Shown piece after piece: positions 5,776 through 63,843 of a DNA stretch of 64,000 bases. Source of the DNA: Aphrocallistes beatrix (Eukaryota > Porifera > Hexactinellida > Sceptrulophora > Aphrocallistidae); contig OY725490.1 in the NCBI GenBank assembly GCA_963281255.1, positions 992,001 through 1,056,000 of the forward strand. Direction: 5' to 3'. The position numbers and the translations under genes were made by a program. The stretch's first letter is position 1. The number at the start of each line of letters is the position of its first letter. The notes beneath the pieces are model-generated. The model did no database searches. It saw only the letters and a program-made list of their open reading frames with translations, and was not told the origin of the DNA.

Positions 5776-8177
5776 TCACTTCAAGTTAGCATAGAATGGA
5801 GGTTTGGTGCTATCTTGTTTCGGTACAGAACTCATATGGACATAATCCTGAGGAGATTGTTGTTGAGTAGGAGAGCTGATGTTACCACCCATCTCATCTA
5901 GATCTATGTACTCGTAAGGATGAGCAGGAGCTGGTTTAGCGGCAGTTAGTGCTGAGTTTAACTGTTCTATTCTCCTTGCCATATATATAATGACAATTAT
6001 TAATGTTACTATGATAATAACTGTAATAAACAAGAGAAGTCCAATGATAACAATTGCGATAAGTAGTGGTGATGAAGATATCATTGTAGGTATAGCTAAA
6101 GTGAGAAAATTTGAAAGAAATGGAAAAAGGTTCTATCAAAACCAAATAAATTTGTGTTAATAACATTACCTGATATAATTACATTACCACTAGCAGTTGT
6201 AAATGTTACAACTGAAGTAGGACGTAGAGTAGTAGATGAGGTATTCGAAGCAGTAGATGAAGATATAGTGGGAAGGAGAGTGACAGGAACTGCATGTATT
6301 GCTAGAGGCATTATATCATACATAATTTCAGATAGAAAAATAAAATAACATACAAGAATCACAGCTCACTTGAACTAACGGTACAACATATTTCTTCAGT
6401 GGATGGCTGACCACACTGTTCATTGATCCTCAAACAAGCTACTATGCTAGTCTCCACATCTGCTGTACATCTGAAGCTATGAGGAGCTATAGACTGAGTG
6501 TAAGTTTGTGCATTCGAAGAGAGGAGAGAGAAATTTGCAATGTTATTAATAGTGCTGGTTATGATATTTCCTTGAGAATGTGAGTAGTTATAGCGGAGAG
6601 AATACTGAATGAGAAGAGGAGTGGACTCAGCGGATAAATCCTGAATGAATAGCACATAATTACAGAGTTCAACCATAAGAGAGTTATAAATAAATGCGTA
6701 TTAAATAGCAGTAACTACTATGCAATCAGGTCTTAAGTTAACAGAATGTATAAATAGAATGCCGTTAGCAATACAGTAATATTTTGAACTTTTGCTTAAC
6801 TCACCCAATTTAGTGTGAACATGTTGGTCACATTGTTGAAATCGAGACATACTAAACTTGGAGATGTATCAACAAGAGAATAACCTAAATAGGAAAAGTA
6901 TAAATTCGATTAAAACATCTATTATTTCAAATTAGCACACCTTCCTACAAGTAAAGTCGTATCACTCAATGACGTCACAGAATGTAAACCTAACGGAAGT
7001 AATCAACAACAAAGAATTCGATACTGGCTCACTATTTATGAGGTTTATGTTTGAGACAGCTGCAGTAGAGTTTCCAGCACAGCTGCTAGCATGGACAGAG
7101 TATGCATAGACTGTATCGAGGAGTAGATTAGTGTTGTGAGAGTATGAGTTAGCAGGTGCTGATATGCTATCTAGTGCTGTTCCGTTCTGTTGAGACAAGT
7201 AATAGATATCTACAGTTCTGTCTGTGGAAGTGGGAGCTGTCCAGTTCAGTGAAACTGTAGCCGAACAAGTGCTAGGATCTATGTTGGATGATGAGATGGA
7301 CAGCATAGATGGTGCAGAAGGAGGAGCTGGAGAAATGAATGATTCTTCAATTAACAATTGATCTACTAGCCAATGTTCAAAATTGGAATCCATAAAATCG
7401 ATCTTATTATAGTTTAAATCAATAATTAGCCTTTTGGGGTTAGTTATTAGAAAGCTGGTAATAAGTTATTGAAAACTGACTTCTTCCTTTTGTTATTGGA
7501 TATTCTTTATGCATTTTATAAAAAGAATTCATAAGCCGGTTTTTAAAGATGCCTAATAATTATTGCTTACCATAATCTAGACTGCAATTAATATCACTTC
7601 GTTTATACTTAGATTTAATTTAAATAAATTTGATAGCATACCAGCGGGTTGCATTGGTTGTCCGGAAGCAAGAGTAGCACTGAGACTAGTGTTGGGAAAG
7701 ATTCCTTTACACTCAAAAGTAGTGCTAGAATCTGAACGTTGATAGCTACGAATGATGACTCTTATCCCTGGTCTGCTCTTGGAAATGTTCAGTCCATCAA
7801 TATTAGCACTGTAAAGGGATAGGTCAATGCCATTTAGTATATTGTTCGTATTTAATTGAGCAATTGTAAATGCACGAGTCGATGAATTTATGGAAACTAG
7901 AGCAGTGGTAATTGCAAACTGTTCTGTAGACTGTACGAAGCACACCATCTCTACTTCCTCACCAATGCACAGTGGAGAGTTAGGAGAGAAGGAGATACTA
8001 CTGTTGCCTATCAAAATGAAATGAAAATACGAACTTAGAATTATCATAAGAATAAAAAGAGTGATGATCCTGATACATAAGAGAAATTCACTTACCATTG
8101 GAATGACTGATCTGAATCAAGAGAAAAATCACGAAGAATACATTGCATGCAGCCTTTTTATGAACCGACATGATCAT
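5776..8177 (-). CDS. Ig-FN3-FN3 transmembrane receptor A with three-tyrosine tail
   Basis: Seven exons with consistent phases: 8097-8177 signal peptide (hydrophobic VFFVIFLLIQI), 7642-8007 Ig-like domain, 7033-7326 first FN3-like domain (APPSAPS start, SLNW, YAYSVHASSCAGN), 6805-6884 and 6370-6640 second FN3-like domain, 6170-6301 Ser/Thr-rich stalk, 5776-6095 membrane span and tail. The span is a run of I/L/V before ARR. The tail carries YEYIDLDE, DYVHM and a terminal YANLK. YxxL, YxxM and YxN sites are known SH2-binding patterns once phosphorylated, so signalling is likely, but this is inference. It is the most divergent ectodomain of the array and has no visible break. Its partner EGF gene lies 760 bp upstream. 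Confidence 0.75.
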
Positions 8178-8936
8178 TAAACTACTAAAAGCTAGAAAGC
8201 AAGCATCATCAAGTTTATGTATTCAGAGTATACAAAACTTAATTTAAGATAGATAGTATAAAGGAAAATTCTGAATCAACAGGACCAACATAATTGTTTT
8301 GATTTATAACTGCTTTAAACTATCATTACACCTAATAGATACAATGTTGTAATTGATACCATTTATTTCAACGATAACCAGTGAACAAATTAGGAAACTT
8401 ATATTCCAAGGATTCATATAGATAGGCGCTAATTAAAATTATGCATAGTACAATGTGTACTGTAAGGGAGATTTTAGTGGATCAATTACTAGAGAAAAAT
8501 ATTCACTTTTTGAAGAGAAAAGGGGAAGTATTCTAACCATTAGTACATAATAGACTGTGAGTTTAACTACATTCTATAATGTACTAATGGTTAGAATCGT
8601 CAACAAAATACTGGTTAGTGTCCAAATAAGCACTAAACTAGTAATATAAAAGATAGACATAACAACATGTATTATTTCATACACAATAGTACAGTATCTA
8701 ATACAAAGAATATGCATCAAGTATTATCATCGTAACAGTCCAGAAAATAAACAATCTTACATGTATTTAGGGTTTAGAGGAGACATTATATGAAATAATA
8801 ATATGCCATATAGGCGAGCAAAATAATCACAAAACATTCTAAGAAATAAAAATCCAAGAAACATATACAAAAGCAAAACTGTATTCTTTTAAGAAGAATT
8901 ACACTAGGAACAGGCTGTGGGAACTTAGAGCTTAGA
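8178..8936. other. Receptor A / EGF1 intergenic region with a perfect-looking hairpin
   Basis: Non-coding. A near-perfect inverted repeat (22 of 23 bases) pairs 8531-8553 with 8574-8596 around a 20-base loop, in the sense TTCTAACCATTAGTACATAA. Only the left arm is recognisable in the equivalent place of other units (near 20473). The remainder is the conserved 3' flank shared by all EGF copies. Confidence 0.5.
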
Positions 8937-10589
8937 TCAGAGAGCATTTGGATATATTTCTTCATGATTCACGTCCGGTGGAATGTTGGGTCGAGATTTG
9001 AAGTGTTTGCGACACAAAATGATGAGACAAATCAAGATGAGAACAAGGAACAATGCGAAAAGTGCCAGAGCAACTAAACCACCTGTAATAGAAGAGGTCA
9101 ATAAGACTAGGTCTATGCCGTGACAACTTCCTGCAAGGCCTAGCCTGGACCCAGCATTACATTCACATTCATAAGACCCATTCGTGTTGGTACAGATTTG
9201 ATCACAGCCGCCGTTGTTGGATAGACACTCGTCTATGTCGTGACAACTTCCTGCAAAACCTAGTCTGAACCCAGCATCACATCCACATTCGTATGACCCA
9301 TTTGTGTTAGTACAAATTTGATCACAACCGCCGTTGTTGGATAGACACTCGTCTATGCCGTAACAACTTCCTGCAAGGCCTAGTCTTAACCCAGCATCAC
9401 ATCCACATTCATAAGACCCATTCGTGTTGATGCAGATCTGCTCACAGTCACCATTATTAGATAGACACTCGTCTATGTCGTAACAACTTCCCGCAAGGCC
9501 TATCCTGGACCCAGCATCACATCCACATTCATAAGACCCATTCGTGTTGATGCAGATCTGCTCACAGTCACCATTATTAGATAGACACTCATCTATGTCG
9601 TAACAACTTCCTGCAAAGCCCTGGCTGAACCCAGCATCACATCCACATTCGTATGACCCATTTGTGTTGGTACATATTTGATCACAGTCACCATTATTGA
9701 ATAGACACTCGTCTATGTCGTGACAACTTCCTGCGAAACCTAGGCTAAACCCAGCATCACATCCACATTCATAAGACCCATTCGTGTTGATACAGGCTTG
9801 CTCACAGGTGTCTAGACCTTCAGTACATTCATTGATATCTACGCAAGATCTCCTGTCTCCATACAATCTGTATCCTAGTAGACATACACAGTGGTCTGTG
9901 CCATTAGTGGTGGAACAGAGATTATCACAACTGCCATTATTCACGACACAATCTACGTTCAAGTGACATTTATTTTCAAACATGAAAAATCCCTCATTAC
10001 ACTCACAATAGGCACTGTCCATCGTGTTAACACAAGTGCTGTTAGCAGGACAAACGAAGGATCTGTTGAAGCATTGATACGAGTGAGGTTGGACACAGTT
10101 TTGGTAATTGGAATCATCCGTTATAGGTTTCCCATTCAAATTGCTCGGAGTCAAACAACTCCCTGTTATTATCCAATCAAATGCGTGGGATACAATGGCG
10201 GTCCATTGCATGTCACAATCACAGTGGAATGGTTCATTTGGCGCCCAAATCTGACGCAGTTGTAGCTGATGTTCGAACAAATCAGAATCAAGTTTAGTCA
10301 AGTCGCAGTTAAGAAAAGTTATCAGAATTGCGTCAGGGTATGTCATGTTGTAAAGTGCTGCCAGGAGAAAAGGGGATATTACGCTAGTGTAAGAGTTGGA
10401 AGTGAGGAGCTCTCCTGATTGGCTGCATTCTCTGACTGAGGCACTGAGAAACTTCGTTTCGAACGTTTGTAGATTACAAGCAATGAAATTATATTCAACA
10501 TCACATCGAACTTCACGCGATGGAGGATTGCAATTCACTAAAAATACTGAGAAATGGAGCACAAGAAAGATAACGCAACACACATGCAT
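8937..10589 (-). CDS. LRRCT-EGF transmembrane protein 1 (intact, 550 aa)
   Basis: Single exon. Signal peptide at residues ~1-20 (VIFLVLHFSVFLVNC). Residues ~25-150 hold a conserved Cys domain ending FHCDCDMQW...W...C...LNG, like an LRR C-terminal cap but without LRR units. Eight EGF-like repeats follow (~165-480). From the third on they have the calcium-binding pattern (I/V)D(E/I)EC or INEC and CxNTNGSYxC. A membrane span (LVALALFALFLVLILICLIIL) precedes a ~27-residue tail with EEIYPNAL, a possible YxN site. Six EGF units are 120-bp tandem repeats almost identical to each other, a sign of recent unit exchange. Ligand binding or adhesion at the cell surface is the likely role. It pairs with receptor A. 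Confidence 0.85.
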   Translation of the reverse strand: MHVCCVIFLVLHFSVFLVNCNPPSREVRCDVEYNFIACNLQTFETKFLSASVRECSQSGELLTSNSYTSVISPFLLAALYNMTYPDAILITFLNCDLTKLDSDLFEHQLQLRQIWAPNEPFHCDCDMQWTAIVSHAFDWIITGSCLTPSNLNGKPITDDSNYQNCVQPHSYQCFNRSFVCPANSTCVNTMDSAYCECNEGFFMFENKCHLNVDCVVNNGSCDNLCSTTNGTDHCVCLLGYRLYGDRRSCVDINECTEGLDTCEQACINTNGSYECGCDAGFSLGFAGSCHDIDECLFNNGDCDQICTNTNGSYECGCDAGFSQGFAGSCYDIDECLSNNGDCEQICINTNGSYECGCDAGSRIGLAGSCYDIDECLSNNGDCEQICINTNGSYECGCDAGLRLGLAGSCYGIDECLSNNGGCDQICTNTNGSYECGCDAGFRLGFAGSCHDIDECLSNNGGCDQICTNTNGSYECECNAGSRLGLAGSCHGIDLVLLTSSITGGLVALALFALFLVLILICLIILCRKHFKSRPNIPPDVNHEEIYPNAL

Positions 10590-11008
10590 TTCTGTGGATA
10601 CTATAGTAGATCTGATGAAAATAAGAGGACAGTAAAGTACAGTATAGCCACTCTTATTCTGCCAACTATTATTGAGATTGATTGTAGATAGAAGTGAATG
10701 TTAGTGCCTACTTTCACTAATGATATATAATATATGTGCCATATATTGTGACTATATATTATGCCATCTTTGTATTTTGTTCGTCTTCTAGGTCAATACT
10801 GCTCTATAATACCTAACTAAATGTAATATTTGATAATACAATTTGTCAGTACAATAGACCAATCAAATAGATCGTGCATCTTACAATAAATTGGACAAGA
10901 TAGGCAATTGTTCAATAGAATTTGATAAAATTCATCCAAAAATATACATAAAGTACTTGCTATAATGCTCACAAATATACTTTTAAATAGCGTCACACTT
11001 CAATGCCA
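10590..11008. other. EGF1 upstream / receptor B downstream flank
   Basis: AT-rich non-coding DNA similar to the flanks of EGF2 (33.3-33.65 kb) and EGF3 (43.75-44.05 kb), including TGATATATAATATATGTG. It would hold the EGF1 promoter; no element is definable. Confidence 0.4.
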
Positions 11009-19821
<8,813 letters not shown>

Positions 19822-20645
19822 TAAACTAAATTATAGATAAGAAAAATCTTATTAATATTATTATCCTCAAATTCCAAATTGTATCACATATTTTAAATTC
19901 TTGTGTGCTAGTCACAGACATTGCTGATAAATCTGACAAATTTACATCAGGGAATGCCAGATGTTGAGTTTTCACAATAAGAAATGGGAAATTACGTCAG
20001 AATAGTCATTGGAAGTGATTATTTCCCATTAGGATTTCCACCAGCCAAAATGATTGAGGATTAGAAATGTAAAAGAGAGCACAAAATGAATGCATTTTAA
20101 TAATAAGTTCCAATTTTATTAATAAGTATATCAACACAATAGAATACTGAGTTCTATTCTGATAATGTGAAGTACCATTAAACTCGTCTGTAGAGAGAAC
20201 TACGAATATGTTTATTGCCTACTTTCATTATCTGAGTTTTATATATCATAAGCATGGTAATCCTAAACTGACATTCCCAGTGGACAAACATTCATATTTA
20301 ACAGTGTAATACTACTTCTATTCAAAGGATTCATATAGATAAGAGTAAATAATTAAATTTATACCTAGCACAATGCAATACTGTTAACAAGGTGACATCA
20401 ATCAATCGAAGAAGAATTTATAGAGAAAATATTTGTGAGAAATGAAAAGGGAACAAGTGAAAGTCCTAACCATTAGTATATAATATTGTTCAATATTAAA
20501 ATCTCAATCTCGATTTGGGTTCCCAATTAAAAACTGAGGTAGTTAAAGTATGCACTAAACTAGTAATATAAAAGATAGATTTGACATAGTTATTTCATAC
20601 ACAAGAGTACAGTAACTAATCAGCACAAATACTGTGCATCAAGTA
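19822..20645. other. Receptor B / EGF4 intergenic region
   Basis: Non-coding; closely matches 30656-31400 and 40345-41065, the same position in other units. It contains the shared block around AAAGGATTCATATAGATAA. Confidence 0.5.
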
Positions 20646-21123
20646 CACTCGAACCTCTCTTATCCGGGCAGTGCCGGACCGGAGGGTGCCTGGATAACAG
20701 AATTTGCCCGGATATCGGAGGTCCGGATAAGAGAGGTGCTACTCAGAAATTAACTTGAATAGCAGTTTATAGTGTTAAAACTATATATATCTAGTGCCTG
20801 GAACTTAGAGGTTATCAAAATTTGAGTTCCGGATGAGAGAGGTGTTTATAAAATAGATATTCTATAAAGGAAAATAAACTATTCCATTGCGGTTGATTAA
20901 TACATTTTAAGCAGTATTTACCCTGAATATATTAGATGTCGCAATTATCTTCCAAATTCATTATCAAAGTTCATTAAATAATATTACATGATAATGATTG
21001 CTGGAATTGTGGTTAATAATTGACTTGAAAATAGGACAATACCTATTGACTAAATGTCGAAAGGGCTGCCCGGTTGAGAGAGGTGCCCGGATATCGGAGG
21101 TCCGGATAAGAGAGGTTCGAGTG
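20646..21123. mobile_element. pogo-like MITE 2
   Basis: Same termini as the 15.0-kb copy, 478 bp. Paralogous empty sites (near 31408 and 41540, CATCAAGTATTA) show insertion at TA; the right copy of TA has changed to TG. Confidence 0.85.
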
Positions 21124-21342
21124 TGTTACCATAGTAACAGTTCAGAAAATAAACAATCTTAAATCACATTTAGTTTAGAGGAGGCATTATATGAAATAAT
21201 AATATGCCATATAGGCGAGCGAAAATAATCACAAAACATTCTAAGAAATAAAAATCTAAGAAATATGTATAAAAGCAAAACTGTATTCTTTCAAGAAGAA
21301 TTACACTAGGAATGGGCTGTGGGAACTTAGAGCTTAGATTAG

Positions 21343-21573
21343 TAATTATTAGGAAGATCTTCAGGATTTACGTTCGGTGCAATGTTGGGTCGAAATTTGT
21401 GGTGCTTGCGACACAAAATGATGAGACAAATCAGGATGAGAACAAGGACCAATGCGAGAAGTGCCAGAGCAACTAAACCAGCTGTGATGGAAGAGATCAG
21501 TATGGCTAGGTCTATGCCGTGTCAACTTCCTGCAAGGCCTAGCCTGAACCCAGCATCACATCCACATTCATAA
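21343..21573 (-). pseudogene. EGF4: 3' remnant of an LRRCT-EGF gene
   Basis: Only part of the last EGF unit, the membrane span (LVALALLALVLVLILICLIIL) and the tail ending NPEDLPNNY remain. Similarity to the paralogs stops at about 21573, in the middle of an EGF unit, where unrelated sequence begins. The signal peptide, LRRCT-like part and most EGF units are absent, so this is a truncated copy. It marks the EGF position of the receptor B unit. Confidence 0.8.
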
Positions 21574-21574
21574 G

Positions 21575-41473: not shown

Positions 41474-41755
41474 GATAGATATGACATACATTTTTCATAC
41501 ACAATAGTACAGTATCTAATACAAAGAATATGCATCAAGTATTATCATAGTAACAGTCCAGAAAATAAACAATCTTACATGTATTTAGAGTTTAGAGGAG
41601 ACATTATATGAAATAATACTATGCCACATAGGCGAACGAAAATAATCACAAAACCTTCTAAGAAATAAAAATCTAAGATACATGTACAAAAGCAAAACTG
41701 TATTATTTTAAGAAGAATTACACTAGGAATAGGCTGTGGGAACTTAGAGCTTAGA

Positions 41756-44759: not shown

Positions 44760-44767
44760 CTTACTGG

Positions 44768-45211: not shown

Positions 45212-45354
45212 CTTACAGGGTAGATACTTTGACAAGAAAGGCAATTATTCAGATAATTTGATACATTCATTCAAAGATATACATATAGTACTTGTTAAAA
45301 TATTCACAAATATACTTCCTAGTATATAAGAAAATTAAACAGCGATACATGTTA

Positions 45355-50765: not shown

Positions 50766-51560
50766 TAGACAATCCTTACTATTAAAACTCGATTAATGTT
50801 TATAAGCGCGCTTGTAAACTATAGAGCAGGGGCCGGCAACCTATGATACGCAAGCACTAAATTGATGGCACGCGGAGTTGAAAATAAATGTAGGTCGACT
50901 TACCACATTTATGTAGATTCAATGGTCGGTAACTCTAGGCAGGCCTGCCACTGGCACACAAGGTCATAAATAAGTCGACATTATAGGTAAACTGGCACAC
51001 TTCATTCAAAAGGTTGCCGATCCCTGCTATAGATATTAATCAATATGAAGAATCATATTCATCGTCTCATCCTCCAATTCAAAAATGGATAGGCTATTAT
51101 TTTATTTAATTCTTGCGTTGCTATTCTAACACAATCTGGTAAAAATCTCACAAAATTATTAGTCCATCAGGGAATGCCGTGAGTTTTCCCAAAAACTAGA
51201 AATTAATAAGGGTTCATTATACAATAGACTAAGAATTAGAATTAAATATGTTTCCAATACATGTACATTTTCAAAATTTTCACTTTATCCTCAATTGAAT
51301 ATACAGTGTATTATATTCTGAAATATCTAACCACCATTAAACTTCTCTTTAGAGAAAAGTTCTAATATCTTTAGTGCCTACTTTCATTTCTGATATATGA
51401 TAATCAATGTAATAGTGTATTTCATGCAATATAATTTGCAGATCTGCCCTAGCATAGTTTTGCATATAGTTTTCTATACAATCAAACTAGTATTGAACAT
51501 CTTCAAACAAGAATAGTCATATTGCCATGCATTTTATCAAAAGATTATATTTCTGTTTGG
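50766..51560. other. Receptor G upstream region
   Basis: Non-coding. It contains the hAT-like element at 50827-51026 and flanks resembling 26.35-27.0 kb. No gene. Confidence 0.45.
50827..51026. mobile_element. 200-bp hAT-like MITE
   Basis: Ends CAGGGGCCGGCAACCTATGA and …AAGGTTGCCGATCCCTG; flanks CTATAGAG and CTATAGAT (7 of 8). It contains GGCACAC words typical of such elements. Confidence 0.88.
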
Positions 51561-52165
51561 ATTTACATTACTAGAGCTGGTGTTAGAGTTTCCAGCACAG
51601 CTCATAACTGTTACAGAGTACTGATAGTCAGTGTTGATATTCAGAATAGTGGAGTGAATGTAACTGTTAGTATTCCAAGATAGAAATATGTCAGCTGAGC
51701 AAGTAACTAGATCGAAGAATTAGATACAGAGCTCTGTAGACTGTGAGCAGAAGCAGAAGGAGTTAGGAAAAGAGTAATGATGAACAAAGCATTAATTTGA
51801 TTGCAAGTCGTATGAACAGCAAACTTCATTCTTAGTCTTACATAGCCTGAGTGAGTCCCAAACTTTTTGAATAAATAGGATTATTAGCTGTTCCACTGAC
51901 AAATATTTCAACATAACATCCGAGATGTAGTCTTTCATCAGAAGTCAGATAATAATTTAGAATAATCTCTCCTGACACTCTTGTAGTAGTTCCACCTGAT
52001 ATGCTAGCTGTCAGTCTAGACAGGTCTACATTAGGATGTGCTATGTTAGTATTGATCTCGCTAGCTGTAGTAAGCTCTGTATCAGAATCTTCAAATGAAT
52101 TTAGGTCCAACAAATGCAAATGTAAGATCATCGAAACATACGTAGAGTCAGCACACAACTAACAT
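51561..52165 (-). pseudogene. Receptor H remnant: Ig-like and FN3 exons
   Basis: 51838-52165 matches the Ig exon (ASEINTNIAHPNVDLSRLTAS; SDERLHLGCYV) but its N-terminal Cys block is disturbed. 51561-51770 matches the first FN3 exon with a deletion of about 85 bp in the middle and frame damage. No signal peptide, second FN3, stalk or tail exons accompany it. Inactive. Confidence 0.75.
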
Positions 52166-52492
52166 GAATGGTATCTCCTTCACACGCAGTAGTTTCCTGT
52201 GAATGTGCTGTGTGTGCCTAGTATTCACCATTGGCTTGATATCATTATTTACTTAATTGTACAAGTACCTGTCAGTCTATCCTGATAGTGAAGTAATGTA
52301 ATAAAAAGCAAGGTAATTCATTAAAAATCTTTAATCACTAAAAAGTATGATAGCATCCATAAATAGGGAATAAAAAATTTATTAATTATTTCAAATCAGA
52401 ATATCATATTTCAACATGAATATATATATCGAAAATAATTTTTTTCATTCAAAAGCAAAGTTTCTATCCGTCTATCCACCAATCGAGTTTGC

Positions 52493-54571
52493 TCATTGAT
52501 TAGTCTCAAAGAAGTCTATAACAGCATAGTGAGTAGGCGAGAAATTTGGAAAGGGCTTCACTATTTCAGCATTAGAGCAATGGTCTATATCCAAGTAATG
52601 AAGTATGAACTATGGAAAGAAATTGATAGAATAACATAAAGGCTAGAGAGTTCATTTCAGTAGCATTTAAATAATATTGAGATTAGTATTTAGAAGTATT
52701 CGAATTTTATCTGAGTACCAAAGCTTTGTTTCGATTAGTTTTTAGTTAGTACTGTTAGTTAGTAGTTAGTTAGTACTTTTAGTTTGTACTTTTAGTTAGT
52801 AGTTAGTTAGTACTTTTAGTTAGTACTTTTAGTTAGTAGTTAGTTAGTACTTTTAGTTTGTACTTTTAGTTAGTAGTTAGTTAGTACTTTTAGTTAGTAC
52901 TTTTAGTTAGTAGTTAGTTAGTACTTTTAGTTTGTACTTTTAGTTAGTAGTTAGTTAGTACTTTTAGTTTGTAGTTAGTTAGTACTTTTAGTTAGTACTA
53001 CGTGTGTTTTTATTACCTTCTTTATGCGTTCTTCCTCACATGTTGTCATATCATCTTTCTTCACGGGTTCTTCCTCACAAATTATTACCTCATCTTTCTT
53101 CACGGGTTCAGGAATCTCAGGTTTATCTTCTAGCTCCTGATTTTGTTCAGGGTTAGGCAGTTCCTGGAGAGCTTCTCCTTGCTCCTGATTTCTACTAAAG
53201 TAAATATGTTTAAATAGAACTATCAGCTCCCAGCAATATACAATAGTTATTGGATAAGAGGCATGCCTAATTTCCCGGACGGGATGGAATCATCCCGAAA
53301 ATCTAGGTACCTAATTTCCGGGACGGGACGAGTCAAGATGCCTAATCTCCGGGACGGGACAGAAAAGGTACCTAATTTCCGAGACGGGACGAGTCAAGAT
53401 GCCTAATCCCCGGGACGGGACAGAAAAGGCACCTAATTTCCGGGACGGGACGGGTTAAGATACCTAATTTCTGGGATGGGATGCCGTCTCGTCCCGGAAA
53501 TTAGGCATGCCCTTGGATAAGAGATAATTTAGTTCGGTTTGAGATTCCTAGTCGATGATATTCCGTGCTAGTTTTATTGGATATAGTGTTAGATTGGTTA
53601 TAGTGATAATTTAGCCAAAAAATATCTTTCCCGGCATTAGCACTACATATCTCCAATATCTATTGTATATTGGAATATCTCTAATGGAGCATCCGTGCAT
53701 GGGGAGCATATTAACACCTCAAAAATGTGTCTAAATGTAGCACTTAAAGAAGTATTTTAGGGAGGTTTTACCAAAGGGATTTTGGGGGATTTTTAGTTGG
53801 TACTTAAGTAGCTTCCTCGTTCATTTCCTGAAATAAATTCTGTTGCAATTTTTTCTAGCTGGACCCCAAAATTTTAGTGATTGACTGGACTATTAGTGAC
53901 TGCTTGGGAAATATAGTAGAGGCGAACGTAGATATCTTCTTTTGACATTTTCTATCTTCCATAAATGGTTAATTGGTCCGAGACCCCGATTAGAGAGGTT
54001 CCACTGTACCAGATCTTCCAATCAAAATTCATCTTAGCCTCAAAATTAATTCTTCTAGATTATTTTAGATTCAATTGAAACGTACAGCTTTTAGCTGATT
54101 GCCATACACTTTTTCACGACATTTCTTCATTACGTTCAGATTAGATGGGTAGATTTAAAGCATATTCACTAGTTAGGTTAAATCTTGAAAATCATATTAG
54201 CTAGACATTAATTTAATTTTATTTGATAGGGAATACCTTACTTTCTATTCGTGATAATATAATATGTACCATTAATACTATATCCATAAGGCTCTTTTCA
54301 GTTATGGAACAATAAAAAAAATATTTGAGATATATTTCCTATACGAGTACACTTACCCTTCCACATTCACTTCTGATTGTGTATGTCCTAAAAAATGGTA
54401 GATCTAATCAGTAGACTAACAACTTAGTAGATATAATGATAAAATCAAACTAACTGCGGTTCTCTTTCCTTTTGCACCAGCAAATAATAACCAATACAAA
54501 CATAACTATGGGAATGATCGGGATAACTAAGAATGCGACTGCTCCCACAACATATATAATGATAATTATAA
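52493..54571 (-). CDS. Divergent receptor membrane/tail module with ITIM/ITSM-like motif (5' exons not found)
   Basis: Four exons with matching phases: 54455-54571 (membrane span, VVGAVAFLVIPIIPIVMFVLVII then CWCKRKENR), 54357-54387, 53017-53194, 52493-52609. The third encodes a charged spacer with an internal repeat (PVKKDE..CEEE, PVKKDD..CEEE). The last reads HYLDIDHCSN, similar to YEYIDLDE of the array tails, and THYAVIDFFETNQ at the end; TxYxxI fits ITSM and ITIM-type consensus. Phase 1 at the membrane exon start equals that of the other receptors, so it should join a stalk or ectodomain exon. None is recognisable upstream apart from a damaged signal-peptide-like stretch near 54690. It may be a relic or use unrecognised exons. 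Confidence 0.6.
52735..53000. repeat. Minisatellite of TTAGTTAGTAC(TT) units
   Basis: About 20 variants of TTAGTTAGTACTTTTAG in an intron of the divergent tail module. Higher-order units of about 70 bp are visible (GTTTGTACTTTTAGTTAGTA recurs). Confidence 0.92.
53260..53512. mobile_element. Palindromic minisatellite-MITE, copy f (largest)
   Basis: Six or so units of CCTAATTTCCGGGACGGGAC between inverted GGCATGCC ends, flanked by the direct repeat TTGGATAAGAG. In an intron of the divergent tail module. Confidence 0.85.
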
Positions 54572-55219
54572 CTGAAGAGAAAATATATTAGAATAATTTT
54601 AAAGTATAAAGTTAAATTATAACTAAGAACATTATAGAAGATCTCTCGCGATTCAAGTTTTCGGGTTTGATTCTAGGATTCTAGATTTTGAATTGTCATT
54701 AGACTAATCTAATTATATTAATCAATATTAAGAGTGATAATGAATGTCCTTATATACGTATATCCCCAATCCCACAATGGGTAATATAATTTTATTTAAT
54801 TCTTGTGTTGCTATTCAAAGACATTCGATCTAAAATTACATCAGACTTCATTTGGGTGATTTACTTGTATATTCGTCCAAAAGATTTAAAATAGAAAATT
54901 TAAAGACAACAAAGTAAATACTACATGGAAAATTGTTATATTTCACATATCTTCAATCGAATCCTGTACATTATATTCTGATTATGCTAACCACCATTAA
55001 AACTTGTCTGTAGAGAAAATTTGGAATATAAGTATTTAGTGCCTACTGCCTACTTTAATTACCTGATATACGATAACCAATAGTATGATTTATTTTATAC
55101 AATAGAATTTTGCAGATAGTCTCTTCCACACAATAAACTAACTGAGTGCATGAACTCAACAAACAAGAATAGTCATGTCTATGTATTCATTTATTTTGTC
55201 TAATGCTTAGATATCTTTT
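54572..55219. other. Upstream region of the divergent tail module
   Basis: No exon recognised. Bases 54680-54720 resemble the 5' part of a signal-peptide exon (inverse of AATTGTCATTAGACTAATCT), but the frame stops after a few codons. Confidence 0.4.
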
Positions 55220-55440
55220 AGAGTTGAATTAGTAGAGGGTAATTCTAAACGTGCCTTAGTATCATTTACCTGTAACCTGATTAGGGAATAGGATAGGAAC
55301 ATGTTCAATTCATATTGTACTTGTACCAAGAACAGATGTTAGTCGGGATTGAAGAGAAAGTAGCAAGAGAAAGAATCAAGTAGGAGAGTGCGAACAACTG
55401 TAACAGTTGATATTAGGAGTTGGAAATGTTGCAAAAGGAA
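55220..55440 (+). pseudogene. Fragment of the coiled-coil/NHL gene
   Basis: Bases 55225-55310 match the 5' flank and 55325-55440 part of the coiled-coil coding region of the gene at 61.0 kb (GTCGGGATTGAAGAGAAAGT; GAGAGTGCGAACAACTG). Frame is broken and the rest is missing. Confidence 0.75.
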
Positions 55441-55642
55441 TTAATTAGGACTATAATTCAATGCAATAAGAATTGGAATTAACTATGTTTCTGTTTAATT
55501 ATTTTTGATTGGTGGGTGAAGTTTTTTTTAAATTTTTATAAATGAACACATTATTCGATCAAAAATATATCGAGGTTAAAATAGCACCATGTACAAAAAT
55601 AACATAAAATCGAAAAAATAGTCTAACCAAAGAATTTATATA

Positions 55643-56612
55643 CAGGGTGGTCCAAAATAGAATGTACCCGATCACGTTTTGACCTGCCCAAACTCCATTT
55701 CTTGTACTAACCAAAAAGCCTTTTTTAAAATATGTCAGATACATCCCCTATGTTCAAGAAAAACACAAATGGACCATCGGGATGAGAACATTCTGTGCGG
55801 TATGGTACATAGAGTACCAGAGCTTCAAGGCCATAATCGATGAATTCCGGACAAAATATAAAACTGACAAAACACCCTATAAATCCTTGATTATTGTGTA
55901 AAACATCTTCTCGGGCTCTCAGAAGCCACACGTTGTGGCAAACAGGCCACTACACTCCAAGATGTGCGGCGTGAACCTTCGGAGAGAGGGAACACCGGCT
56001 CTTTCTACATCGTGGAAAATGGGAAGGCAATAACAAACAACACAGTGGGTGGTACATCGCTGTATAAGAGCTGTTCTGATACGAACTCCGGACTCAGTAT
56101 CCAGAGCTACACAAGAGGATGTGGTTTCAACAAGATGGGGCGACCCCCCACACCGCCAAAGCCTCCTTTGATTGGCTCAAGTGTCTCATTTCAAAAGTCA
56201 TTTCGTCAGCAGGGAGACGTCCATCGGGTGGCCCCCTTACTCTCCCGACCTTAGCCCCCCCAGACTTCTTTCAATGGGGTTATTTGAAGGACAAGATTCA
56301 TAAGAACAAGCCTCGAACACTTGAGCAGCTGAAGATGAATATTATGCAATAAATCAGGGTGATAAGCAAAGATGTTCTGAAGTCAGTTTTCCAGAATTTG
56401 GTGTTGCGACTCAAAAATGTCCAAGAACAGAATGGTGGCCACATCGAGCACCTCCTCTAAAGCCGTAGGATTTCAAGCTATAGACCTGATAGTCACAGGA
56501 TATGTTTACAATTAAGTTACTATCTTAAGTTTATAATCACATTGCTTTGCGATAAATATTACCTGAACAGTAGGGGAAAGATTTTGGGTGCAATCTATTT
56601 TGGACCACCCGG
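55643..56612 (+). mobile_element. Tc1/mariner-superfamily element with decayed transposase
   Basis: Ends CAGGGTGGTCCAAAATAGA and (inverted) CCGGGTGGTCCAAAATAGA, with TA on both sides. Plus-strand frame 56119-56352 reads MWFQQDGATPHTA and FFQWGYLKDKIHKNKPRTLEQ, the second-Asp and third-acid blocks of this superfamily. Frameshifts separate it from the upstream piece (from 55964), and the N-terminal part is missing. Not active. Confidence 0.85.
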
Positions 56613-57168
56613 TATATATATAATGACTTAGTGAAAGCGAGCATTTTAGGTTTAAAATAGTGCTCAATTGAGTGTTGAGTGTGAAAGTGGCTTTTTTTAT
56701 TTCGTGAGGTGAGTACTGATTGATACTTTAGGTTTTTGTAATAACATTGGTGGTATTCCCGAAACTTACTTCGAATTTAGGTCATTTTCCTTCTTCCTAA
56801 ATTTCGTTAGTTAAATTCCTACTCTGCAATATTTAGGTCAAATTCCCACGTCCCAGTTGAGCACTATATACGTACGTCTTTGCTGGGTGTCGCAGAGACT
56901 TTAGGAATCCATAACATATTTTGCTATTACTTAACGGAATTGAAATCAATGATCTGATGTAAACATACATTTATTTAATTAACATCAATATTTACAAACA
57001 CCAGCAATCTAAATGTATTTTTCTAAATAAACAGTAATGCTATAAAAATATATATACATACTAGTATTCTTTGATAAAGAATAAAATCCAAATATACTCT
57101 GATTTAACCTATATAGAGCAAATATTTCTATTTAAAGAAAACAAATATAAGTATGGCCAACAAACAAC
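56613..57168. other. CD225 gene 3' flank
   Basis: AT-rich, no gene recognised. Confidence 0.4.
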
Positions 57169-57711
57169 TTATGATGAAAATAGGACACGGAGGCTACGAC
57201 TTCTGGAATAAATCAAGACAAATATAACTGTTGCAGCTATGCCTAAGATGATAGAAGCAATTCCGAGAGAAGTTGCGATCCAACTGAGCACCTTTGCAGA
57301 ATTGTAGTCTTTGCTTCTGAATTGGCTCTGGGCATACACAGCTACACAGGTAGCACACGCGCCAATGGGAAATGAAAACAGCATAGAGATGGCTGCAAAA
57401 ATGACGATGCGCTTGAAATACTTGGGATTAGTAGAATAAGTGTTCCTCTGTCCTCGGTTTCTGTTGAATCTGTCCTGTTGATTCGATGTAGTAGGTTTGG
57501 ATGTTGGTGCTAGTTCTTGTGTAGGAGGGTACGGTTGCTGGGTAAGGGGCAAAGGTGTTGCATTTTGATTGGTGTAAACAGGAGGAGGATGGGCTCCTGG
57601 TACTTCAGGGAGGTCTGCAGTAGGGTTGGAGGGTTGGACATTTGGGGTATCAACGGGAGGGTAAGGGTAAGGGTAAGTAGTATCAGAATAAGTAGGAGGT
57701 AATTGAGACAT
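57169..57711 (-). CDS. CD225/dispanin family protein (IFITM-like), 180 aa
   Basis: Single exon; ATG at 57711. Residues ~1-95 are proline-rich (PPTYSDTTYPYPYPP contains a PPxY motif for WW-domain or NEDD4-type binding). Two hydrophobic segments follow: FKRIVIFAAISMLFSFPIGA (~100-125) and VLSWIATSLGIASIILGIAA (~145-170), joined by a loop with SQFRSKDYNSAKVL that fits the CD225 pattern (S....GDY..A..S). Known members include IFITM proteins, PRRT and TMEM proteins, which act in membrane fusion or vesicle traffic. Function here is not proven. The double-palmitoylation CC typical of IFITM is not obvious; CATC follows the first segment. Divergently arranged with respect to a duplicated upstream region. 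Confidence 0.8.
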   Translation of the reverse strand: MSQLPPTYSDTTYPYPYPPVDTPNVQPSNPTADLPEVPGAHPPPVYTNQNATPLPLTQQPYPPTQELAPTSKPTTSNQQDRFNRNRGQRNTYSTNPKYFKRIVIFAAISMLFSFPIGACATCVAVYAQSQFRSKDYNSAKVLSWIATSLGIASIILGIAATVIFVLIYSRSRSLRVLFSS

Positions 57712-59224
57712 TTGATTTTACTTTTGGTTTCAAATAAATTTTATGAGGCAAACTTAATTATTTCAAAAAGTTTAATTGTTACAAAGATTGGAGGTATTTA
57801 TACTAAAATACGCTATAGAGCAAAGTTATATTCGTCCATCTCATTGGTCCACATTCCTGTGTTTAGCTTTAAGAACGTAATAAGAATATCAAGGCTGAGT
57901 GTATATTCTGTTTTCAATGATTCATCAATTGACGCAAAGATTGATCCATTATGAGCATATGCTCTGACGAGAAAAGCTCAAGCTAATAAGTAATCAGATT
58001 CAACTGCAAAGTAACTACCTGAAAGTTTATGTCATACAAAGCAGTACACATTGTAGTTAGCCCATTTGATAGTTCACGCGTATACTGCAAGCATTTATGT
58101 AATGTGTTGTAAGCACGTCATCTAGTATCAGCTAACCTAAGCACTACGGTGCTTTCACTTTATTCATCAGTTTAATTTGGATTACGTACTAACGCTAGTG
58201 CAGTGTGCTCATACAGGAGCTTCTATAGTAGAACTAAATTGCTTTCAGTAATTGCAATGGTTTAGTGGGAATATCAAATTACGTTATCAGTGACTATTCT
58301 AAATATAGTATCACAATACAATAATTATTCTTCCCCGAGCTACATCTTTTGAATTTCTATTTTGGGCCTCCATAGAGATTAATACAATACGTAAACCTTG
58401 GTTTTGAAGAACACCAATATTGAATGCATCTTATTAGTTCTTTCTTTTGATGCAGCTCCTGTAAACCCCTGAGAACATATCAGCATGGATCCAGGGAGTA
58501 TATGAATATAAAACAAAGCAAAGATATGAAATATTCCTATAATCCATGAGATCCTCATTCCTCAATCGAATACTGTGTAACTGCCATCAAGCTTGTCTCT
58601 AGAGAAAAGTCTGAATATTTTTAATGTATACTTCCATCTCAAATAAGATAACCAAAGTAATATTGTATTACTGTTTCATGCCGGGGCGATAAAATGTTGT
58701 AGAAGATTGGCCTATGCTTAGTTTTCTATAAAATCAAACTAACAGAGTATTGAACTTCAACAAACAAGAATAGTAATGGCACCATGGATTATCTCATTGG
58801 TCCACATCCTCATGTTTAGCTTTAAGAACGAAATAAGAATGTTCAAGACTGAGTGTATATTCTGTTTTCAATGATTCATCAATTGAGGCAAATATTGACG
58901 AGAAAAGCTCAAGCTAATAAGTAATCAGATTCAACTGCAAAGTAACTACCTGAAAGTTTATGTCATACATAGCAGTACACATTGTAGTTAGCCCATATGA
59001 TTACATTTATGTAATGTGTCGTAAGCACGTCATCTAGTATCAGCTAATCTAAGCACTACGGTGCTTTCACTTTATTCATCAGTTTAATTTGGACTACGTA
59101 CTAATTCTAGTGCATTGTTGCTCATATAGGAGCTTCTATAGTAGAGCTAAATAACTTTCAGTAATTGCAATGGTTTAGTAATAATATTCAATTACGTTAT
59201 CAGTTACTTATTCTAAATATAGTA
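57712..59224. other. CD225 upstream region with a tandem segmental duplication
   Basis: 57838-58360 and 58791-59224 (continuing at 60531-60565 beyond a mariner element) are direct repeats of about 0.5 kb, for example TCATTGGTCCACAT. A SINE 3' end lies at about 58455-58515. No gene. Confidence 0.75.
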
Positions 59225-60530
59225 CGAGGGGTGCCCGATAAGTTTTTAGCCTTGAACATATATTAAGTCATTATTAACGAACCATACATTTTTCTTATAA
59301 CTCGATACTTTACTAACTGACTCTGTAAATCCTAGCTCTCTACTATATATTTTTCTGAAGTTTTGCTACATTTTGTATGATGGCTCAGGCAAATATTACT
59401 GAAAATATTATCCTCACAAAAGAGCAAATTCGGGCAATTATTCTTTTTCAATTTAAAATGGATAAAACAATTGATGATTGTTACCAACAGTTAATACAAG
59501 CTTTCGGTAACGATGTTACATCTCTTGCTACTGTAAAAAACTGGTACAGAGAGTTTAGAAGAGGAAATTTTGACCTTACTGACAAACCTAGACCAGGGTC
59601 GCCGTTGACTGCTTCGACCCCAGAGAACATCAGCGCAATTGAGAAGTTGGTACTTAATGATAAGCACATAACCTATAGACAGATTCAGTACGAGTTGGGT
59701 ATCAGTAATGATGTGATCCAATTCATCCTACACTAAATTCTACACTTAACAAAAGTCTGTGCAAGGTGGATTCCTCATTTGCTCAAACCTGAGCAGAAAG
59801 TAGCCCGAATTGATTGGTGCAAGAAAATGAAGTCAAAATTCAAAAAAGGCACTTCTCCTCTGGTTTCCAAAGTGATTACGGGTGATGAAACATGGATTTA
59901 TCATTATGACCCAGAATCCAAAGAGCAGAGCCGTCAGTGGACTCCAATAGGTGAACCTCCCCCTCAAAAAGTTAGGAAAAGTCAGTATTCTAAGAAGCAA
60001 ATGTATGCAATATTCTTTGATCCTAAAGGTATTCGTGCAGTAGTTGCACTAGAGAGTGGAAAAACAGTCTCTTCAGAATGGTACACCACTAGTTGCCTCC
60101 CAGAACTCATTCAAAATGTTCATAAAATGCGACCAGAAGATGGGACAAGGGGTTTACTGCTGCATCATGATAATGCAAGTTCACATAAGGCCCTGAAAAC
60201 AAGGAAATTTATTGAAGAAACTGGCTTCGAGGAGTTATCTCACCCACCCTACAGCCCAGATTTAGCTCCATGTGACTTCTGGCTCTTTCCTCGTATTAAG
60301 AAGAAGTTGAAGGGGAGGGTTTTCAGCAGCAATGATGAAGTGCGGTCAGCATTATCAGAGGCTTTGGAGGACATCCGAGAAAATGAGTTCGCCGAAGCTT
60401 TTGATAGTTGGTTTTGCAGAATGGACAAGTGTATTAAAGCTGGAGGAGAGTATTTTGAACAATTATAATAATGCATTCTATTATAATGCTGTTTTCGAAT
60501 CAAGGCTAAAAACTTATCGGGCACCCCTCG
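59225..60530 (+). mobile_element. mariner element (DD34D-type), 1.3 kb
   Basis: Ends CGAGGGGTGCCCGATAAGTT and its perfect inverse, TA duplicated (59223-59224, 60531-60532). The paralogous empty site is at 58309-58310. Contains one transposase frame with a single stop. Confidence 0.93.
59377..60468 (+). pseudogene. mariner transposase with one in-frame stop
   Basis: 59377-59736 (N-terminal HTH half: FQFKMDKTIDDCYQ, TVKNWYREFRRG) and 59779-60468 (catalytic half) share the same frame; only TAA at 59734-59736 separates them. Catalytic blocks are intact: TGDETWIYHY (first Asp), HHDNASSHKA (second), PPYSPDLAPCDFWLF (third, Asp 34 residues on). Otherwise full length (about 360 aa) and open. It lies between perfect terminal repeats, so it is a recent, singly disabled copy. 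Confidence 0.9.
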
Positions 60531-60532
60531 TA

Positions 60533-61009
60533 TCACAATACAATAATTATTCTTCACCGAGCTGTATATACCAAGTGTTCAATAAGTTTGAGTAAATAAT
60601 ATTTCCTGAATTAGGATTAAATTCAATTAAGTACGTATATAGGATAAATTACCCAATCAAGATGTTTTGTGGATTTTGAGACAAAAATCCTTGTTTCTTG
60701 AATTATACGTCACAACACATTTTGTATCTTCCGAAATAACGACACATTTCAAAACATTTTTTAGTATTGAACTTCGACAAACAAGAATAGTAATGGTACC
60801 ATGCGTTCATTCATTTTATCAAAGTATTAGATTTCATTCGAGTTGGATTTGGTTGATGTAAACGTGCTTTAGTATCATTTACCTGTAACCTGAGCTGGGA
60901 ATAGGATAGGAACATTCAATTCATATTGTATCTACTCATAATTATAAGAACGAACAAGATTTTGAGTGTAATTCTATTTATTTACTTTCTAGAAATTTAC
61001 AATTATTAA
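60533..61009. other. Upstream region of the coiled-coil/NHL gene
   Basis: Starts with the end of the duplicated CD225 upstream segment. Block 60838-60940 is the 5' flank also found beside the NHL fragment at 55.2 kb, so it may hold the promoter. Confidence 0.45.
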
Positions 61010-62236
61010 ATGGCGACTTGTTTGACAGACGCGCCACAATCCGTAGATTCCATTGAATGCCACATCAACCACTTCTTCGATCAAGTGGTTGCAAGTGTGA
61101 ACCGTCGTAGATTGACACTCATCGCAGAAGCAAATGAAAAGAGACTCGAAATGACTGCGCGTGTCACTCTTCAAGCAAAGAAAGAAGAAGAACTGATGAA
61201 TGTGAAATCAGACATCGAGGCTAAGATAAAGACCAATCAACTCCGAGAGTTGCAAGAACAAATGTTAATCGGGATTGAAGAGAAAGTAGCGGAGATGAGA
61301 CTACTTCATCCCGAGACACGCCTGGTGTTTCAAGGAGAGTGCGAACAACTGCAGCAGTTGATACTAGGAATCGGGAAAGTTGTAGAGGAAGAAGTGTCAG
61401 TCATCACCCGATACCATGACATGAGAAAGGTAGTAGGAGTAGCGAGGAAAGGCCAGAATCCTGGGGAGTTATCCGAACCTAATGCTATCGCAATCGATGA
61501 GCTAACAAATAACATATACGTCACAGAATACGCTCCCGCTAGAGTGTCGATATTCTCAGAGTCAGGGAAATTCCTAAACACCTTCACGAATCGGCTCATG
61601 GAACATCCATACGGTATCGCTATCCACAGTGACAACGTATATGTGACAGACCTCGGAATACCAGGAGTGTTCCAGTTCAAAATAGAGCTGCCAGATATAC
61701 GTCTTCACTCTGTGATAGCAGGCAATGTATCTGATGATGAAAAGTCTTACTGTCCTCGACAACTCACTGTCTCCACTGATGGAGAAGTCTTTGTAGCTGA
61801 CTGTAGTAACCACAAAATACAAATACTAGATGCGTCCTTATTCTACAAACGCTCCATTAAGCATGACTCCATGCTCTGTCCTATTGACGTTAAACTCAGT
61901 GGGGAGCAGGTGTACGTACTCACTCTCGTATCCGATTCCTGTGTCCATGTTTTCTCTCACGACGGAGTGAAATTACGTTCCTTTATCACAAAAAGTGGAG
62001 TGCAGGGAATTACTGGTGCTTGGTTCTTCTGTCTGGATACAGCTACCAATCTAATCATTAGTGATGGTGAGGCTAACCTCATCAAAGTGTTCTCTCCAGA
62101 TGGAACGCTACTTCACTCGATAGGAGGTTTCCAAGGCGGTCTTCCAAGTCCACAGGGCTTAGCCTTAACTAAAGAAAATAAACTTGTCGTAGTCGCGCCA
62201 TACTGCACATCTATGCTGCAAATATTTTCTGTGTAA
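61010..62236 (+). CDS. Coiled-coil / NHL-repeat protein, 408 aa (TRIM-NHL-like without RING)
   Basis: Single exon; ATG at 61010 follows an AT-rich leader. Residues ~20-135 are helical with IECHINHFFDQVVASVNRRR and long charged heptads, as in the coiled coil of TRIM proteins. Residues ~140-408 form NHL-type beta-propeller repeats: GELSEPNAIAID..NNIYVTEY, HPYGIAIHSDNVYVTD, PRQLTVSTDGEVFVADCSNHKIQI, GGLPSPQGLAL. No RING or B-box. NHL propellers bind protein or RNA; the role here is unknown. The coil resembles that of the phosphatase gene at 25 kb (HI..F..LI..L..RR..LL). No break seen. Confidence 0.85.
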   Translation: MATCLTDAPQSVDSIECHINHFFDQVVASVNRRRLTLIAEANEKRLEMTARVTLQAKKEEELMNVKSDIEAKIKTNQLRELQEQMLIGIEEKVAEMRLLHPETRLVFQGECEQLQQLILGIGKVVEEEVSVITRYHDMRKVVGVARKGQNPGELSEPNAIAIDELTNNIYVTEYAPARVSIFSESGKFLNTFTNRLMEHPYGIAIHSDNVYVTDLGIPGVFQFKIELPDIRLHSVIAGNVSDDEKSYCPRQLTVSTDGEVFVADCSNHKIQILDASLFYKRSIKHDSMLCPIDVKLSGEQVYVLTLVSDSCVHVFSHDGVKLRSFITKSGVQGITGAWFFCLDTATNLIISDGEANLIKVFSPDGTLLHSIGGFQGGLPSPQGLALTKENKLVVVAPYCTSMLQIFSV

Positions 62237-62359
62237 TTTTTTTGTATACCGGTATTTTTTTATTTAGCTAATGCTCATTTAGATACTTTGAGGCTTAGCC
62301 CTATAGCTGTGTTGAATAAAATAATCTGCATAAGCAATTCATCATTACAATGTATAATA

Positions 62360-62893
62360 CGAGGGTTACTCAATATGTTTTGAGCCTAGAGTAGTTGCTT
62401 CCGTTTGATTTTGTTGAAAATTTCTAGGATTATTCACCTACCTATTACGTATTATCTTTGACTTTGAGTTTGGTTTCAATCGGACAAGTTTCTAAAATAT
62501 TGTGATGAAGAAATTGTCTAAGATATTTTGTATTAGCATATATGAAAACACAAACACAAGTGTTGAATTGGGATATCTTTGAACATTTATTTATAGAATC
62601 CCCCCGGATTGTGAATATATCGCATCATTGATAATATTGAATTATCAAAAGTTTGTTCCCAACTATCATTTTTCTATAAAGAGAATAAATAAAATTCCAT
62701 AGGAAATGGCTTGCAAATGTGTCGGAGTCCACAAGGACACTCCATTATATGTGGCATAATATTTTAGAAACTTGTCCAATCTAACTCAAAGCCAAAGATA
62801 CAAGTAATAATAGGTAGATGAATAATCCTAGGAATTTTCAACACAATCAAATGGAAGCAACTACTAGGCTCAAAACATATCGAGTGACCCTCG
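62360..62893. mobile_element. 534-bp mariner-type MITE with ~145-bp inverted repeats
   Basis: Starts CGAGGGTTACTCAATATGTT; the right end inverted reads CGAGGGTCACTCGATATGTT. TA on both sides (62358-62359, 62894-62895). The repeats include GTTGCTTCC and CCTAGGATTATTCA. No ORF. Confidence 0.9.
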
Positions 62894-63171
62894 TAAATAA
62901 AGTAAATGTTGTGTTTAGATTATAAAATGAATTTAAGCGTAATAAGACAATATTATCACTACATCTAATGTTTTAACGAATCTTATAAAATAACTATCTG
63001 AGCAGTAATGTAAGCTATTAGCGATTAATTGATGATCTCTGTGATGAGATTGAGAGCGGAACATCTAATGTAAATTTATAGATTGCTGTGGTGCTACCGT
63101 TGTAGTGTTACAAGAAGTGGCTTTCATTCTGCCGGTGCCACGGTTTTAGAAGTGTTTCGGTTGAACCCAGA

Positions 63172-63843
63172 TCATTTCAAGTTAGCATAGAAAGGAGGTT
63201 TAGTGTTATCTTGTTTGTGTACAGAACTCATAAGAACATAATCATGAGGAGGAGATTGTTGTTGAGTTGGAGAGCTGATGTTACCATTCATCTCATTTAT
63301 ATCTATACATTCGTAAGCATGAGATGGAGCTGGTTTAGGTTTAGATGGAGACTTTAACTGTCTTATCTTTCTTATTAGGAGAATAACAGCAATTATTAAT
63401 ATCAAGTTGATAACTAAACTTATCAAGAATAACATTGCGAAGATAATAGATGTGGGCAGAAATGTTGAAGATGAATCTGAAAGAATAGAAACACGTATAT
63501 TAGACATTATGTACAGTTAGTACACATTTGTTCTTGGAAAGTTATTAATACCAATATTCCTCGCGTCGGAATATTGTATAGTTGTATTTGTAAAAAAAGA
63601 TACATTATTTTCCTTATCTTTTGCCTCGAAGTGTTTATAGCCTCAATTCGAAAGTCTTTTCGAATTTAAGTTAGAGTTACTTTTTGTACAATGTTGAGAT
63701 ATTTTGTACTTACTGATAGAGACAGTATTGCAAGGTACTGCTGTAGTACTCATTTGTGTAGAAAAGGAAGATCTTTCAGTAGATGTAGATGTTGGAATCG
63801 ATAAAGTAATAGGAGTAGATGAAGTGGGTAAAATGGCTGGATT
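63172..63843 (-). CDS. Ig-FN3-FN3 receptor I, 3' exons (rest outside window)
   Basis: Tail and membrane exon 63172-63480 and stalk exon about 63717-63843 match the array; ectodomain exons would lie beyond 64000. The tail reads YECIDINEM (second tyrosine of the usual YEYI replaced by Cys), HDYVLMSSV and terminal FYANLK. The stalk has the usual Ser/Thr-rich composition. It shows that the array continues to the right of the CD225 and NHL genes. Open and phase-compatible. Confidence 0.75.

Follow-up and report, generated by a model that had tools for sequence, protein, structure and literature searches.

Hydractinia Alr proteins are thought to bind themselves or an allelic partner. CD28, ICOS, DAP10 and JAML, which are co-receptors of the phosphoinositide 3-kinase (PI3K) type, carry YxxM-type tails, several of them beneath an immunoglobulin (Ig) tip, and are not known to have an FN3 stem. 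Alr proteins are described as Ig-fold proteins that cross the membrane once and whose genes lie in a cluster, many copies being broken (PMC11067881), with tyrosine motifs reported in their tails (PMC12065747). The fester co-receptors (FcoR) of Botryllus span the membrane once, between a tip formed by a variable-type Ig domain and a tail with a core YxxI/L/V motif; they carry sushi and C2 domains, can bear an immunoreceptor tyrosine-based inhibitory motif (ITIM) or a hemITAM, and are linked to a mapped histocompatibility locus, according to the same passages (PMC12065747). The allorecognition candidates of sponges, cnidarians and ascidians are characterized there as not conserved and their mechanisms as a mystery (PMC12065747). 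Membrane proteins with Ig domains described from sponges include a Geodia cydonium receptor tyrosine kinase and the products of Ig-TIR genes (PMC12018476, PMC12909245).

Here we analyze a stretch of 64,000 nucleotides (the window) from the glass sponge Aphrocallistes beatrix, located at positions 992001-1056000 of contig OY725490.1 (C3) in a 100.5-Mb genome of 28 contigs. It holds part of a cluster in which genes for Ig-fold receptors lie in tandem, evolve by birth and death and keep their tyrosine tails conserved, a description that our results support. With a probability of roughly 0.6, we judge these genes to encode a diversifying family of recognition receptors, putatively type I membrane proteins with variable partners on other cells or on microbes. 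Like Alr, the family forms a cluster of single-pass Ig-fold proteins, and it resembles both Alr and FcoR in layout, but it differs in its FN3 stem, which stands in place of the sushi and C2 domains of FcoR, and in its YxxM/YANLK tail. Judged from one assembly, and in contrast to Alr, the receptors have one V-type Ig domain followed by FN3 domains and carry a tail that is mostly not ITIM and never an immunoreceptor tyrosine-based activation motif (ITAM). It shares the YxxM-type tail with the PI3K-type co-receptors, although homology to these is not demonstrated and the sponge genes form a large cluster. Whereas the Geodia and Ig-TIR proteins have a kinase or TIR domain inside the cell, the cluster receptors have a short, domain-free tyrosine tail. 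A search for full-length homologues among 5.8 billion proteins, in which 7983 candidates were scored, returned none with an E-value of 0.001 or below, and no such cluster was present among the matches listed from sponge-related literature, from which we claim no absence from print.

The array and its extent

The window contains nine minus-strand copies or remnants (A, B, C, D, E, E', Eb, Ec and F) of a gene built to a single plan, namely a signal peptide (SP), a V-type Ig exon, FN3-1, a two-exon FN3 (FN3-2a and FN3-2b), a Ser/Thr stalk, and an exon for the membrane span and tail (TM+tail). Splice sites and phases are concordant between aligned copies. Two copies are complete (C and D), two are missing just a proved signal exon (A and E), and the other five (B, E', Eb, Ec and F) are damaged, incomplete or truncated at the window edge. 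Copy C (30655-27487) has seven exons (SP 30655-30577, Ig 29891-29529, FN3-1 29181-28900, FN3-2a 28829-28753, FN3-2b 28662-28380, stalk 28179-28060 and TM+tail 27785-27487) encoding 500 aa, with GT/AG borders at all introns and no internal stop. Copy D (40344-33656), also stop-free with GT/AG introns, encodes 591 aa in eight exons (SP 40344-40266, Ig 39871-39509, FN3-1 39216-38935, FN3-1b 38854-38576, FN3-2a 38500-38424, FN3-2b 38308-38026, stalk 34659-34546 and TM+tail 33954-33656), the additional exon being a duplicate of FN3-1, and the alignment of tails shows that it has lost the tyrosine of YVPM. A preliminary description of this DNA had proposed a tandem array on one exon plan undergoing decay, and both points are confirmed, the former by the matching phases and the two stop-free copies, the latter by broken B, E' and Ec. 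Its tally holds as nine copies or remnants in the window, but the cluster runs far beyond, and its gene list left out an interleaved family of membrane proteins with EGF repeats.

The broken copies, together with inverted repeats and a transposase-like remnant in B, could indicate that the array is mostly dead, the remains of a formerly active family. The 10 kb upstream of copy F, where only a fragment of FN3-2b and a single distant match to FN3 were seen, would fit this too. We consider it improbable, however, as A, C, D and E each read through several canonically spliced exons and the C-terminal YANLK is kept in every one of 24 full tails (partial and broken tails excluded).

The structure prediction that had been suggested as a check gave a V-type Ig fold for the tip and an FN3 fold for FN3-1. 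The Ig exon was modelled as a V-type beta sandwich with the B-F disulfide cysteines, and the tip is predicted to be a V-type Ig domain, an assignment made among the folds listed by the search. V domains make up most of its weak matches among PDB sequences (best E 0.067). The FN3-1 model matched the FN3 structure 1k85 (E 2.9e-3), and the FN3-1 profile match in copy C (E 2.6e-5, 24.8 bits) fell slightly below the 25-bit cut-off.

When the copy B Ig exon was used as a query against the genome, it gave 99 matches with E up to 1, and 82 rows had E ≤0.001. Of these rows 75 are on C3, 74 of the 82 lying within 1.1 Mb (C3:0.728-1.834 Mb) on both strands, with a median spacing of 10 kb in the cluster. 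One exon spans two rows in this count and the copy A Ig exon is missing from it, so divergent copies escape the count. With the copy C tail exon as query, C3:0.95-1.61 Mb accounts for 30 of the 32 matches (E up to 1), and a pattern search for a C-terminal YANLK followed by a stop gave 43 matches, against three for the reversed control; 37 of the 43 had a real stop, and 31 of these 37 are at C3:0.95-1.65 Mb. At C3:1.684-1.694 Mb one locus (L071) joins Ig and FN3-1 exons to different distal exons and a short one-tyrosine tail, and therefore both long- and short-tailed forms exist in the cluster; its span/tail piece has seven genome matches (five on C3, two on C4). Two stretches of the cluster, C3:1689467-1692826 and C3:1693444-1696806, are 99.97-100% identical to C4:2026929-2030288 and C4:2022949-2026311, on another contig and in opposite orientation, which may reflect a very recent duplication or an assembly artefact. 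Further dense groups of FN3 matches were seen at C6:777810-1469279 and C12:4336048-4354431.

The tyrosine tail

The 24 full tails comprise seven from the window, 15 from elsewhere on C3, and one each from C6 and C14; the remaining eight of the 32 tail-exon rows, partial or broken and including Ec, were left out of the counts. Tails are about 50 residues long with fixed tyrosines. YE[YHC]I occurs in 23 of the 24 and YxxM in 21, while YxN, a core YxxI/L/V and the C-terminal YANLK occur in all. A tail that was missed by protein search still contains YDYIDI, two YxxM and YANLK. A strict ITIM was found in three tails (one each on C6, C3 and C14), and neither the corresponding switch motif (ITSM) nor an ITAM in any of the 24, so a conventional ITIM receptor was rejected. 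These counts speak against the parallel drawn earlier with vertebrate LRC/SLAM-type loci.

YxxM is a binding motif for p85-type SH2 domains, and YxN for those of the GRB2 type. Binding of a ligand by the tip would lead a tyrosine kinase to phosphorylate the tail, phosphorylated YxxM would recruit PI3-kinase through a p85-type SH2 domain, and the C-terminal YANL would recruit GRB2-type SH2 adaptors, which would make these proteins activating or co-stimulatory receptors and not ITIM inhibitors. The combination of YxxM and YANLK raises the question of whether such receptors can signal without ITIM or ITAM. Kinase and tyrosine-phosphatase domains are plentiful in the genome, the kinase profile lumping tyrosine with Ser/Thr kinases.

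A separate gene on C14 (L037, C14:3872104-3875367) has a 464-aa open frame with three Ig domains of the canonical I-set type (Pfam E 1.2e-31), a membrane span and a tail ending in YANLK, the tail exon matching at C14:3873604 with E 2.4e-8. Because it has the same tail plan, the tail may predate the cluster, and this gene is a possible source of it. A derivation of the Ig tip from the same gene found no support, as hhalign detected no similarity between its Ig domains and the cluster Ig exon (probability 0.2 on a scale of 0-100).

The tails also bear on the idea that the cluster is a histocompatibility complex whose tips bind themselves or an allelic partner. Alr offers a precedent, including 44 further gene models suggested to be pseudogenes in the relevant passage (PMC11067881), and the core YxxI/L/V motif is reported also for FcoR (PMC12065747). 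FN3 domains, however, go unmentioned for Alr or FcoR in those passages, and the scarcity of ITIM and absence of ITAM among the 24 tails likewise speak against allorecognition, which we hold to be unlikely.

Variation and exchange among exons

The ratio of nonsynonymous to synonymous divergence (dN/dS) was obtained from pairwise counts over 12 independent pairs, using 24 of 29 Ig exons. Pooled, it was 0.78 for the Ig exon, 0.38 for the E-F core and 0.96 for the F-G region, where the region labels are a reading of the model, and four of the 12 individual pairs gave 1.04-1.53. Variability peaks at columns 97-110, which run from the last part of strand F through the F-G loop and rank first of 120 circular windows.

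Copy E shows how unevenly the exons have diverged. Its nucleotide identity to B, C and D is 78-79% in the Ig exon versus 91-93% in FN3-1 and 95-97% in FN3-2b, and synonymous divergence (dS) follows the same order (0.37-0.38, 0.10-0.13 and 0.07-0.10, respectively), with Fisher tests on rounded counts giving p 0.0004-0.009 for the Ig against the FN3 exons in five comparisons. As the Ig divergence of copy E is also synonymous, a mosaic history accounts for much, at least part, of this contrast. Divergent Ig exons beside near-identical FN3 and tail exons, as first described, are thus found for Ig against FN3 when E is compared with B, C and D, but the tail exons of the window are 83-93% identical, and in some cluster pairs elsewhere similarity is highest in the Ig exon. 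For example, an Ig-exon-sized tract of 486 bp is 99.4% identical between C3:1380643-1381128 and C3:1373036-1373521 (inverted), with no collinear similarity past its ends, and a second Ig tract is shared by C3:1599673-1600076 and C3:1579657-1580060 (404 bp, 97.3%).

The tail contains a homogenised block of about 165 nt per copy (27648-27487, minus strand, in copy C), reading PAPS..YEYI..YVPM..YANLK plus the stop. Over 23 tail exons its mean pairwise identity is 0.78-0.96, compared with 0.62-0.72 in the membrane span upstream and 0.33-0.52 past the stop, and dS is 0.185 in the tail versus 0.938 where that exon encodes the span, over all 253 pairs (0.150 versus 0.322 over 11 independent pairs). 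Low dS suggests gene conversion of the tail, although the block edge at the stop codon is also in line with constraint on the coding sequence; the two together would account for the uniformity of the tail.

Two further explanations may be considered. Ig-FN3 layouts are common among adhesion molecules, and the genes might simply serve ordinary adhesion or guidance, having multiplied in this lineage under neutral turnover without diversifying in what they recognise. The pooled ratio of 0.78 and the mosaic pattern of synonymous divergence are compatible with drift combined with gene conversion, and the same tail sits on the separate three-I-set gene on C14. More than 70 Ig-exon rows in a cluster, sharing of tips limited to one exon and a variability peak at F-G would be unusual for single-ligand genes, and we find this explanation doubtful. 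Paired-receptor sets have short- and long-tailed forms together. The co-occurrence of such forms here, a birth-and-death cluster and maximal diversity at the F-G region would also suit an expanded innate family sensing microbes or symbionts. Against this, no microbial pattern receptor with an Ig-FN3-stalk-tyrosine-tail layout is known to us. A tandem cluster of AIG1-domain genes in another glass sponge is discussed as immune-related in the passage concerned (PMC10282587). From the gene features, antimicrobial or symbiont recognition may be entertained as a tentative possibility.

For a diversifying recognition family in the wider sense, tandem duplication, the passage of Ig-exon-sized tracts between unlike neighbours and variability at F-G would together generate new binding specificities. 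A more specific proposal, which we put forward as speculative and probably not correct, is an Ig-based self/non-self complex in which single-exon tips are swapped while a shared PI3K/GRB2-type tail is kept uniform by conversion. If true, a sponge would show a split like that of antigen receptors, between a tip that varies and a signal that is shared, and would use a signalling code unlike that of ITIM and ITAM. The cluster is concrete and countable, some of its genes are intact, and both the variable exon and the constant tail are well defined, which makes polymorphism, expression and SH2 binding directly testable.

Several results weigh against the recognition-receptor reading, which is drawn from sequence. 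In none of the Ig regions did dN/dS exceed 1 across the 12 independent pairs, and the FN3 and tail exons have ratios close to that of the Ig exon, so the tip is not singled out by this measure; selection on the outer domain, as initially proposed, is not borne out, and we do not claim positive selection on the tip. As to the fold, 23 members of the Ig exon gave no Ig-superfamily match in Pfam, and none of the PDB sequence matches was significant, JAML being the best of them in one search (E 0.017) and the best of another standing at E 0.067. The best Foldseek match to the Ig model had E 2.5e-3, none reaching 0.001, and beta sandwiches outside the Ig class, among them adaptin ears and ZP-N, were on the list as well. 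Model confidence was moderate (pLDDT 70.4 for Ig, 76.5 for FN3-1), and FN3-2 is a putative second FN3-like domain split over two exons, labelled at the exon level. The pairing of YxxM and YANL with SH2 domains is presumed, and a reader of YxxM is unproved because the two matches of a p85 inter-SH2 search were both under the curated cut-off and its controls matched in an archaeon.

Further copies and neighbouring genes

Copy E (50622-48115) is open from the Ig exon through the stop (Ig 50622-50257, FN3-1 50144-49869, FN3-2a 49795-49719, FN3-2b 49406-49124, stalk 48777-48637, TM+tail 48416-48115), and no SP exon was recognised in its diverged upstream sequence. Beyond it, also on the minus strand, the intact cassette Eb (47481-46756; stalk 47481-47362, TM+tail 47054-46756) is in frame with FN3-2b of copy E, and the joined model is likewise open, making Eb possibly an alternative 3' end of E or an orphan remnant. 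Cassette Ec (45862-45355) is a frameshifted remnant of a stalk and TM+tail, and fragment E' (52192-51562) retains a partial Ig exon (51844-52092) and broken FN3-1 pieces. Copy F shows its 3' end in the window (63845-63172; stalk 63845-63714, TM+tail 63476-63172), its upstream exons lying past the edge.

The divergent copy A (8177-5776) is open from the Ig exon through the stop, with a candidate signal-peptide ORF upstream starting at ATG 8177 (Ig 8007-7642, FN3-1 7326-7033, FN3-2a 6884-6805, FN3-2b 6640-6370, stalk 6289-6188 or to 6170, TM+tail 6095-5776). Its Ig domain is 25% identical to that of copy D. Copy B (19821-11009) is a probable pseudogene (SP 19821-19743, Ig 19335-18961, FN3-1 18707-18426, FN3-2a 18354-18278, FN3-2b 18122-17828, stalk 11726-11544, TM+tail 11316-11009); the 5' part of FN3-2b has been lost and replaced, skipping this exon shifts the frame, and about 6 kb containing inverted repeats separates it from the stalk. 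The inverted pairs are 11818-12138/13362-13679 (97.5%) and 13684-14000/17220-17536 (99.4%). Also within copy B are a weak TNP-like RNase H remnant (12631-13002), marginally below cut-off, and a 380-aa ORF on the plus strand (15808-16950) for which a Pfam search gave no match.

The interleaved EGF family (10700-8937, 33299-31608 and 43792-41756, minus strand) encodes EGF_CA repeats in 120-nt tandem units, a membrane span and an N-terminal cysteine-rich part that we take to resemble an LRR C-terminal cap, with no Pfam LRR match. One copy ends in IYPNAL, and the middle copy falls into two open frames. The three copies, all in the window, are 94-100% identical, and the next relatives, on C9, C7, other contigs or far along C3, reach at most 61%, with the exception of a 63-residue piece (76%) at C3:1.076 Mb. 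Because the near-identical copies are all here and the next relatives are distant, the gene was set aside as a receptor partner and taken as a co-duplicated neighbour.

Between copies C and B lies a multi-exon protein tyrosine phosphatase gene (24329-22672, minus strand, Pfam E 2.5e-19), whose active-site stretch reads across an apparent GC-AG intron; it was rejected as the cytoplasmic part of copy C, which has its own tail and stop. No Rfam family was found in the window. Genome queries with an Antennapedia homeodomain and TGF-beta gave three (45-46% identical) and five matches, respectively, and a Wnt query gave none, a result that is weak alone since the controls matched nowhere. This gene content, with few ANTP homeoboxes and TGF-beta present, suits a glass sponge and makes a Hox-bearing animal unlikely. 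Elsewhere in the window are a proline-rich ORF (57169-57717, minus strand) with a weak CD225/IFITM match under the cut-off (E 2.4e-4), a mariner-type transposase (59359-60468, plus strand) in one frame, split by a stop into two pieces (HTH_48 and Transposase_1), and a 408-aa open frame (61010-62236, plus strand) with an NHL repeat match (E 1.8e-15).

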